This document shows, piece after piece, positions 7,975 through 49,988 of a stretch of 64,000 bases of DNA. Positions within the stretch are counted from its first letter, which is position 1, and each line of letters starts with the position of its first letter. The position numbers and the translations under genes were made by a program. Source of the stretch: Metabacillus sp. FJAT-52054 (GTDB lineage: Bacteria > Bacillota > Bacilli > Bacillales > Bacillaceae); assembly GCF_037201815.1 (NCBI RefSeq), contig NZ_CP147407.1, positions 2,612,723 through 2,676,722 on the forward strand, read 5' to 3'. Below the pieces are notes generated by a model, which did not search any database, was not told the DNA's origin, and saw only the letters and a list, made by a program, of their open reading frames with translations.

Positions 7975-8043
7975 TGGCTCTGTTAAAATTGGGTGTTGAT
8001 TGCAGCCAGCAGGTCTCAAAAAACATCATGCTTTAACATGCTG
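7975..8043 (+). repeat. MITE-like dispersed repeat, short copy A
   Basis: Begins GGCTCTGTTAAAATTGGGTGTTGATT and ends with an element related to the right end of the longer copies (AAACATCATGCTTTAACATG). It matches the ends of the copies at 18776-18961, 28470-28568 and 49801-49988 but lacks the central part. It lies in the era-yqzL gap, otherwise AT-rich and featureless. Confidence 0.7.
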
Positions 8044-18628: not shown

Positions 18629-18706
18629 GCTATTTCCCTCCCTCCGAATACACCAATCGACGAATGCTTCAAAGTTGTCATGCTTATTTTAAACATGTAC
18701 TTTGCC

Positions 18707-18735
18707 ATTATAATATAATAGGAGGAAATGGTCAA
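18707..18735 (-). promoter_or_regulatory. Sigma-A promoter of rpsU-yqeY
   Basis: TTGACC (18735-18730), 17 bases, TATAAT (18712-18707) on the minus strand. This is near consensus, as expected for a ribosomal protein gene. Confidence 0.85.
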
Positions 18736-18775
18736 CCAAAATTCGCTTTAAAGCTTGAGTTATCGCTTTTTAATT

Positions 18776-18961
18776 AGCTTTGTTAAACTTGGCTGTTGAT
18801 TGCAGTTAGCAGGCGTTCGCTTATCCTTGGGCGGGCGGTGAGCCTCCTCGCCGCTTCGCGCCTGCGGGGTCTCACCTGTCCCGCTGCTCTTAGCACGGAG
18901 TCTCGCGCCTTCCACTCCAATCAACAAGGGCTTAAAATCAACACCAGGCTTTAACAGAGCC
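18776..18961 (+). repeat. MITE-like dispersed repeat, full copy B
   Basis: About 186 bases, GC-rich inside. The left end is AGCTTTGTTAAACTTGGCTGTTGATT; the right end, reverse complemented, reads GGCTCTGTTAAAGCCTGGTGTTGATT, giving imperfect terminal inverted repeats. The interior (GGGCGGTGAGC, TCTCACCTGTCCCGCTGCTC) matches copy D at 49801-49988 in the opposite orientation. It fills most of the gap between rpsU and deoC and encodes no protein. Confidence 0.8.
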
Positions 18962-18967
18962 TTTTAA

Positions 18968-19639
18968 TTAATAATCAGACTGAGAGCTTCCTCCACTGAC
19001 AATGCTGATCCCGGCGCTTGCTCCAATTCGGGTTGCCCCTGCCTCAATCATAAGGTCTGCTCCAGCACGGTCACGCACTCCGCCAGATGCTTTAACTCCC
19101 AGATCAGGACCTACTGTTTTTCTCATCAGACGGATGTCTTCAACCGTTGCTCCTCCTGTGGAGAAACCAGTAGAGGTTTTGACAAAGTCGGCACCGGCTT
19201 TAACGGAAAGCTCGCAAGCAAGTGTTTTTTCTTCATCTGTTAAAAGACATGTTTCAATGATTACTTTTGTTAAGGCTTTACCTTTAGCTGCTTCTGTTAC
19301 CGCACGGATATCCTTTTCTACCAGTTCTGCATCTCCATCTTTGAGAGCACCGATATTAATAACCATATCTACTTCTGCCGCACCCTTTTCAATCGCATCC
19401 TTCGTTTCGAATGCTTTTGTTTCAGGTGTGGAAGCTCCTAGAGGAAAACCGATAACGGTACATACTTTGACATCTGTACCTTCTAAAAGACGGGCGCATG
19501 TTTCAACCCATGTTGGATTTACACAGACAGAAGCGAATTGATATTCTTTTGCTTCCTCACAAAGTTTTTCAATCTGAGCCTTTGTTGTGTCCGGTTTTAG
19601 TGCTGTGTGATCTATCATTTTTGCCATATTTTCAGTCAT
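18968..19639 (-). CDS. deoC: Deoxyribose-phosphate aldolase
   Basis: Class I aldolase that cleaves 2-deoxyribose 5-phosphate to glyceraldehyde 3-phosphate and acetaldehyde in deoxynucleoside catabolism. The Schiff-base lysine is K154 (DFVKTSTGF), with K183 (GVKASGG) and D91 as the other active-site residues. The 223-residue length is normal. GAGAGGGG lies upstream of ATG 19639. In B. subtilis this gene is elsewhere (dra-nupC-pdp), so its site between rpsU and mtaB is a lineage difference. A cre-like palindrome lies at 19725-19736. Confidence 0.96.
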
Positions 19640-24122: not shown

Positions 24123-24184
24123 AATCCTCTCACTCCCGAATTCTCACATAAAGTAAATTGTATCATTTTAAAGCACATTGTAGC

Positions 24185-24570
24185 AATAAAGAAAAGCGGA
24201 GGCGGCTCGTTCAGGCCCGACAGACGGTGGAGCTGGAACTGACAAAGTCGCTTTTTGACTTTGACAGGGCCAGCGAAGCGTCCGAGGGACTAGCCGCCGC
24301 AGCTAGACAATAAAGAAAAGCGGAGGCGGCTTGTTCATGCCAGAATGTAAGTTCTGCTAAAGGCGCGACGTCCTGTCGCAACGCTGAACGAGCCTTCATC
24401 CTGAAGGCCCTCGACCGAGAAAGCGAAATGACCCTGCGGCACAGCGCCCGCAGCTAGACAATAAAGAAAAGCGGAGGCGGCTTGTTCAGGCCAGAATAGA
24501 AGTTCTGCTAAAGGCGCGGCGTCCTGTCACAGCGCAGAGCTGACCTGCGTCGTGCAGACCTCCAACAGAC
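24185..24570 (+). repeat. Three tandem GC-rich repeat units between dnaK and dnaJ
   Basis: The motif AATAAAGAAAAGCGGAGGCGG recurs at 24185, 24309 and 24460. Units of about 124, 151 and 110 bases run to CAGCTAGACA, except the third, which decays near 24570. Units 2 and 3 share AGTTCTGCTAAAGGCGC; unit 1 has a different centre with an AAGTC/GACTT hairpin. GGCGGCT near the start and AGCCGCC near the end make unit 1 foldable. Similar GAAAAGCGGAGGCG repeats occur widely in Bacillaceae as I recall. No ORF is supported. Confidence 0.85.
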
Positions 24571-28469: not shown

Positions 28470-28568
28470 AGCTCTGTTACACTTGACTGTTGATTTCTTC
28501 AGAAGGCGTTCCCTTTCCGCTCCAATAAACAGGTCTTTTTAAAACAGCACATGGCTTTACCATGCCTG
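28470..28568 (+). repeat. MITE-like dispersed repeat, short copy C
   Basis: The left end GCTCTGTTACACTTGACTGTTGATT and right end AAAACAGCACATGGCTTTACCATG match the termini of copies A, B and D. The GC-rich middle is largely missing, leaving an AAGGCGTTCCCTTTCCGCTCCAATAAACA segment like the one next to the right end of copy B. It lies between hemW and the hrcA promoter and overlaps the end of hemW by a few bases at most. Confidence 0.7.
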
Positions 28569-49800: not shown

Positions 49801-49988
49801 CTTAGGCTCGCTTAAAGTCTGGTGCTGATTTTTAACGTCTATGATTGAAGCGGAAGGCGCTAGACTTCTGCTTAGAGCAGCGGGACAGGTGAGAGCCCGC
49901 AGTGGTGTAGCGAGGGGCATGCTCACCGCCCGACTAAGAATTAGCGAGCGCCTGCTAGCTGCAATCAACAACTACGTTTAACAGAGCT
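49801..49988 (-). repeat. MITE-like dispersed repeat, full copy D (inverted relative to B)
   Basis: Read on the minus strand it begins AGCTCTGTTAAACGTAGTTGTTGATTG, continues GGGCGGTGAGC and CTCTCACCTGTCCCGCTGCTC, and ends CAGCACCAGACTTTAAGCGAGCC, colinear with copy B over its full length. The copies differ at many positions, so neither insertion is recent. It lies next to the yrhC terminator. Confidence 0.8.

Follow-up and report, generated by a model that had tools for sequence, protein, structure and literature searches.

An intergenic MITE-like repeat family of Metabacillus, its IS1595-type ends and its hairpin core

A 64,000-nucleotide stretch of a Metabacillus genome (hereafter the window; G000:C1:2612723-2676722, where G000 is the 4.13-Mb genome of the window strain) holds four copies, A to D, of a short repeat. 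How did such a sequence come to be inserted here, which enzyme could have moved it, and why has its GC-rich interior been retained? The first-pass annotation of the window, made from the sequence alone, had read these copies as a MITE-like family with imperfect terminal inverted repeats, mobilised in trans by an unknown element and possibly encoding a structured RNA in its core. BLAST searches within the window and a search of the G000 genome confirmed that the repeat is real and genomic.

Copies, ends and insertion sites

Copy B is full length and occupies 18776-18961 on the forward strand (186 bp), running from the left end AGCTTTGTTAAACTTGGCTGTTGATT through the GC-rich hairpin core to the right end AATCAACACCAGGCTTTAACAGAGCC, which reads GGCTCTGTTAAAGCCTGGTGTTGATT in the inward direction. 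Its central hairpin motif, GGTGAGCCTCCTC-N-TGCGGGGTCTCACC, is located at 18837-18876 on the same strand (G000:C1:2631559-2631598). The copy is bracketed by an 8-bp target duplication, TTTTAATT, at 18768-18775 on the left and, in perfect match, at 18962-18969 on the right. The right duplication overlaps the 3' end of a deoC-type ORF (18968-19639, reverse strand), and a YqeY-type ORF lies on the other side. Copy D, also full length, spans 49805-49988 on the reverse strand between sigK and a YrhC-type ORF; it is 80% identical to copy B from end to end, with an E-value of 2e-42 in the window, and its flanks, AAAACTTA and AAAAATTA (row L037), match at 7 of 8 positions.

The two remaining copies, A (about 7976-8041, forward strand) and C (about 28470-28566, forward strand), whose ends were placed by eye, have kept both ends and lost the core. 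The flanks of A, TAATTTTT and TGATTTTT, agree at 7 of 8 positions, and those of C, TATGGTTT and TGCGGTTA, at 5 of 8, which leaves C without a clear target duplication. With copy B as query in the window, these short copies were found mainly via their left ends (BLAST E 4e-7 for A and 5e-6 for C), the right ends alone being weak (E 0.10 and 0.008, respectively, when the final 60 bases of B served as query); their status is settled by the genome-wide copies in G000. Re-reading of the window moved the copy positions of the first-pass annotation by only a few bases, and its description of two full-length copies in opposite orientation and two internally deleted ones is borne out.

That annotation had called for a genome-wide search, holding that a MITE should have further copies with shared ends, and for a look at target duplications. 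At least 42 matches to copy B were found in G000 by BLAST, a lower bound given that 40 of 129 first-look candidates were scored in this genome. Full-length copies measure 176-188 bp, and the family is short, multicopy and non-coding. A search with the end pattern, allowing up to 2 mismatches, returned 26 matches in G000, the left end of copy A among them, and 0 with the reversed pattern as a control. Outside this genome, copy B has BLAST matches widely: 34 of 60 genomes (G000 counted) and 18 of 30 genera gave at least one.

We aligned 40 oriented G000 copies with their flanks, two secondary partial matches being excluded. The alignment shows that the ends are shared, as terminal inverted repeats of the AGCTCTGTTAAACTTGGCTGTTGATT / GGCTCTGTTAAAGCATGGTGTTGATT type. 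Anchoring of both ends succeeded in 32 copies and failed in the other 8. The 8-bp flanks are identical at 7 or more of 8 positions in 21 of the 32 anchorable copies, perfectly so in 11, and 11 copies are without a duplication at this threshold; random re-pairing of the flanks (2000 shuffles) gave means of 1.19 (at least 7/8; maximum 6) and 0.33 (perfect; maximum 3). The duplications are variable in sequence and AT-rich.

For eight copies bracketed by perfect duplications, the flanks were joined and used to seek empty sites in four congeners and in a conspecific genome, G476. An uninterrupted site was recovered in at least one relative for 4 of the 8 junctions. The site of L010 is empty in G001 (78%) and G476 (97%), that of L011 in G476 (93%) with a 131-bp gap in G001 that is not clean, that of L026 in G002 (80%) and G003 (75%), and that of L032 in G002 (69%). 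At the L026 and L032 sites G001 is occupied, with gaps of 185 and 183 bp and a MITE match or end present, and G476 was judged occupied by its gaps of 187 and 170 bp. No empty site was found for L028 and L047, where G476 looks occupied (gaps of 179 and 175 bp), nor for L009, which is split over two contigs; the L015 site is rearranged and has no MITE, other DNA taking up 110 bp in G001 and 1109 bp in G476. This pattern of occupancy implies that some insertions are common to different species and others vary within this one. The ends aligned in 40 copies, the 8-bp duplications and the empty sites uphold the reading of these repeats as a family of MITEs whose terminal inverted repeats are imperfect, and the divergence between copies, taken earlier as a sign of old insertions, is consistent with this evidence.

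IS1595 elements with the same ends

In a genome of another genus, one end-pattern match precedes an IS1595 transposase by about 550 bp. We scanned 17 transposase stretches, corresponding to 16 distinct loci (L084 and L104 overlap), for paired ends with 8-bp duplications. Eleven IS1595 elements have both and 5 distinct loci do not; the duplication is perfect in 10 of the 11 and matches at 7 of 8 positions in L089. Such 8-bp duplications are described as usual in IS1595 members in an excerpt of PMC8101967. These elements fall into two groups by their ends. Group A, with MITE-type ends (GGCTCTGTTAAA...TGTTGA) and perfect 8-bp duplications, consists of L091 (1571 bp, G001, duplication ATTCCATT) and L094 (1975 bp, G004, duplication TACCTATA) in two congeneric genomes, and of L104 (2038 bp) and L108 (1760 bp) in G005, a member of another genus. 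Group B comprises seven elements with GGCTGTTTTCGTA-like ends. Two of them, L092 and L103, are in G000 itself (C1:902255 and 1387807; 1498 bp each). Both have an open frame of 363 codons and a perfect 8-bp duplication, and their ends are of the GGCTGTGTTCGTA type, which places them in the other group than the MITE. All three transposases scanned (L091 and L104 of group A, and L103) pass both PF12762 (DDE_Tnp_IS1595) and NF033547 (IS1595 family). A second long open frame, resembling a passenger gene, lies beside the transposase in L091, L094, L104, L108, L086 and L106.

The MITE and the IS1595 insertion sequences have in common GG-initiated imperfect terminal inverted repeats of about 24 bp, 8-bp AT-rich duplications, and the ends of the elements found in the genus, but the MITE has neither a transposase nor the IS interior. 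When two MITE copies were compared by BLAST with the 11 IS elements, only the terminal 24-35 bp were common, and the MITE interior had no match in these elements apart from chance hits of 13-19 bp. Because the common sequence is confined to the ends, simple internal deletion of an IS does not account for the MITE.

The mobilisation in trans put forward in the first-pass annotation fits with the presence, in congeners, of IS1595 elements carrying the same ends, and these shared ends suggest that an IS1595 transposase would have moved the MITE. That annotation had also proposed looking for a full-length, transposase-bearing element with these ends; such elements were found in relatives, but neither a clearly full-length frame nor an intact G000 copy was among them. 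In all four group-A elements the transposase frame falls short of being clearly full length: that of L091 is open for 316 codons and stops before a C-terminal stretch present in L104, and those of L094, L104 and L108 are interrupted. This does not affect the case for IS1595, which rests on the shared ends and the duplications. A protein search for group-A transposases in six genomes of the genus revealed further fragments in G002, G003 and G476; fragments at 59-92% identity were assigned to group A because group-B proteins score 42-49%. In G000 the sole such match is a remnant of 51 codons at C1:3020282-3020434. It has 69% identity with the frame of L091, and a sequence resembling the TIR, at 4 mismatches, begins 55 bp upstream of it. 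Since the matching transposase is reduced there to this remnant, the MITE family is orphaned in G000.

Plasmids and phages were also considered as carriers. Of 72,556 plasmid records, 13 match the repeat, and no match covers 80% or more of the query in one place. We inspected the core hit H1 and three (H7, H9 and H13) of the left-half hits H7-H13, and no autonomous element was found at the latter three; the H13 locus has IS6 and Tn3-family transposases nearby. In H7 (L074) and H9 (L076), on B. subtilis and Paenibacillus plasmids, a half-copy lies in a formaldehyde-metabolism segment (hxlA/hxlB, zwf, gnd), with a Tn3-family transposase close to it in L076, and H8 and H10-H12 (Peribacillus, Paenibacillus and Priestia plasmids) look like H7 and H9 from their match range alone. 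No phage match was obtained, and the exact consensus core had none in IMG/VR.

The hairpin core and its origin

The core of the repeat is a GC-rich hairpin of about 110 bp, GGTGAG-CCTCCTC-loop-TGCGGGG-TCTCACC, set within longer imperfect arms. Among 150 genomes sampled from the order, 39 contain the exact pattern, representing 27 of 84 genera, and 0 contain its reversed control. In a phylum-wide sample that included only three genomes of the order besides G000, it was found in 1 of 299 genomes, which is G000 itself (reversed control 0). The named genomes contain at least 119 core stretches, 80 of which were taken as loci; the carriers among the listed loci are Bacillaceae- and Planococcaceae-type genera. 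One core copy is on a 14-kb contig assigned to 'Pseudomonas sp. ISL-84' (L195, JAGGRA010000054.1), which is probably a contamination. By eye, and among the loci listed, the closest named group-A copies are L148, L123 and L152 of Metabacillus.

This distribution raises the possibility that the genomes keep the element chiefly for a function as a structured RNA, or as a regulatory or 3'-end hairpin of mRNAs, and that the transposon ends are secondary. Several features speak for this reading. At least 77 named core copies have enough flanking sequence, of which one with Ns was dropped to leave 76; 58 of these entered the structure alignments, the other 18 being set aside because inserts or base changes leave them without GAGTC at the expected distance. 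Inspection by eye of the named copies shows that the outer stems vary between genera but remain complementary. The loop spacers, 70 of which are distinct among 82, pair at 2.9 of 4 positions on average, as compared with 1.66 after shuffling (maximum 2.06). Two motifs outside the search pattern recur with at most 1 mismatch: the left arm has CGCTTTCC in 64 of 76 copies (reversed control 2), and the right arm has AGGAGTC in 60 of 76 (reversed control 1). The covariation expected of a structured RNA is found in the loop spacer and is weak over the consensus fold, where it contributes -0.36 of -17.01 kcal/mol with two-sided changes in 3 of 19 pairs, a low value that is due in part to the inner pairs being fixed by the search pattern.

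If the core acted as RNA, one strand should be favoured, and on this point the tests disagree. With ORFs from a simple longest-ORF caller rather than a gene finder, the reverse complement of the repeat runs in the same direction as the genes in 21 of 25 distinct tandem-gene gaps of G000 (p ~0.0009; one duplicate row removed). For G001, where 30 of the 43 matches were covered, the figure is 13 of 15, but G001 and G000 have insertions in common. The named genomes show no bias (25 of 46 tandem gaps). Wobble asymmetry is likewise inconsistent in direction. The alignment pairs include 115 GT and 57 AC, but 55 of the GT come from one fixed column, leaving about 60 versus 57; the loop spacers have 1 GT and 12 AC, and the outer arms have 201 GT and 131 AC over the 76 copies (87 and 56 over the 29 own copies), so that spacers favour one strand and outer arms the opposite one. 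Furthermore, the region of copy B (18700-19050) has 0 Rfam matches at E<=5, the covariance model of RF01690 included, the core is missing from copies A and C, and the presence of the MITE varies between strains. A primarily RNA element is therefore unlikely. We conclude from these comparisons that the core is a conserved fold whose RNA strand polarity is not demonstrated: of the structured RNA suggested in the first-pass annotation, the conserved hairpin stands, and its action as RNA, on which the strand tests conflict, is hypothetical. Maintenance of the core through hairpin-templated DNA repair is possible.

Could the core instead be an independent, REP-like mobile unit with its own transposase, for example a single-strand one, that landed inside IS1595-type elements? 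Here the sequences around the core copies are informative. Flanks were long enough for this comparison in 74 named core copies. With at most 2 mismatches, paired ends of group A or group B enclose the core in 13 of them (0 in the reversed-pattern control), and 7 of the 13 also show duplications of at least 7/8: L137, L142, L148 and L186 with group-A ends, and L153, L173 and L198 with group-B ends. At up to 3 mismatches, both patterns are found in 18 of the 74, against 5 in the reversed-pattern control; single-end matches are about as frequent as in that control, and the remaining copies have no recognisable paired ends at these 2-3 mismatches. Many core copies thus show no IS1595 ends that can be recognised, as an independent unit would predict, and the outer stems belong to several unrelated sequences. 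In G000 itself, core hairpins at C1:979838 and 3970913 (L323 and L326) carry stems of GGCTGATT/AATCAGCC and lack clear IS1595 ends. Moreover, a Bacillaceae-1 RNA (RF01690) is nested in a core arm of L143 (7572-7639, reverse strand), in 1 of 6 loci scanned, and by eye L140 and L169 resemble this arrangement. Against a separate unit, what was inserted in the window family is the whole 186 bp, as its duplications show, and we consider an independent REP-like element slightly less probable still than the RNA reading.

The RNA nested within the core arm of L143 suggests that repeat families trade hairpin modules with one another. A broader reading, in which the ~110-bp hairpin would be not a MITE of one family but an order-wide mobile module that swaps ends, accepts nested hairpins and is kept for a function of the folded nucleic acid, is tentative, though better placed than either alternative above. 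The window also has a second hairpin repeat at 24180-24570, with the unit GAAAAGCGGAGGCGGCT...GCAGCTAGACAATAAA in about three partial tandem copies, which carries two RF01690 matches (24341-24407 and 24492-24558).

A model for mobilisation and its implications

A last alternative, that the ends belong to another family producing 8-bp duplications and resemble those of IS1595 by convergence, is very improbable: IS6- and ISL3-type ends likewise begin with GG(C/T)TCT and make 8-bp duplications, but four IS1595 elements carry the same 24-bp ends as the MITE, ISL3 (PF01610) has 0 matches in G000 and one among four congeners (in G002), and IS6 (PF13610) has 0 in G000 at E<=0.001 and 0 over the cut-off in five genomes of the genus, both families being set aside on these Pfam matches.

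Based on the above data, the repeat is, with little doubt, a non-autonomous MITE of about 186 bp that was inserted by an IS1595-family transposase, is orphaned in G000 and has an interior of other than IS origin. We propose that an IS1595-family DDE transposase would recognise the imperfect ends of about 25 bp, GGCTCTGTTAAA-N7-TGTTGATT, and that insertion would duplicate 8 AT-rich target bases. In G000 the matching transposase has decayed to the 51-codon remnant beside one recognisable end, and the family is probably immobile there unless a matching transposase enters. The interior is a GC-rich hairpin of non-IS origin that recurs across the order, both with a second group of IS1595 ends and with other outer stems. 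Its persistence would most likely reflect a folded form, either as DNA or as read-through mRNA at gene ends, that is tolerated or useful.

Bacterial MITEs such as RUP, Nezha and Chunjie are short, gene-less elements with terminal inverted repeats and target duplications, present in tens of copies, mostly intergenic, and moved in trans. The family described here resembles them in size, terminal inverted repeats, duplications, copy number and intergenic placement. Unlike bacterial MITEs generally, its interior is not that of a deleted IS but a conserved GC-rich hairpin common to differently ended families. The bcr1 repeats of the B. cereus group, as described in part of PMC6542083, are likewise short interspersed Bacillaceae repeats with mobile-element features and tens of copies; the mobility of bcr repeats is tied there to a TTTAT motif, whereas the MITE has variable 8-bp duplications and IS1595-type terminal inverted repeats in place of a target motif of that type. 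Bacillaceae-1 RNA (RF01690), listed in the portion of PMC2864571 consulted, is also a structured Bacillaceae repeat, but the MITE itself has no match to it. Bhal-1 and Bhal-2 of B. halodurans, stem-loop repeats of 74-76 bp with 36 and 50 copies according to an extract of PMC2267715, are like the core in being stem-loop repeats in Bacillus, a likeness by description only. In open-licence PMC text, the repeat is not described in the titles or abstract starts among the matches listed, and its sequence words gave 0 matches.

A high-copy intergenic repeat of the Bacillaceae thereby gains a likely mechanism, mobilisation by IS1595. Repeats of this kind can be mistaken for genes, as illustrated by the plasmid matches H3 and H5, which lie under annotated hypothetical proteins. 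The family is an example of a MITE left with a decayed transposase, in the host as in its relatives, and it raises the question of why one hairpin has come to lie between different transposon ends in 27 of the 84 sampled genera of the order.
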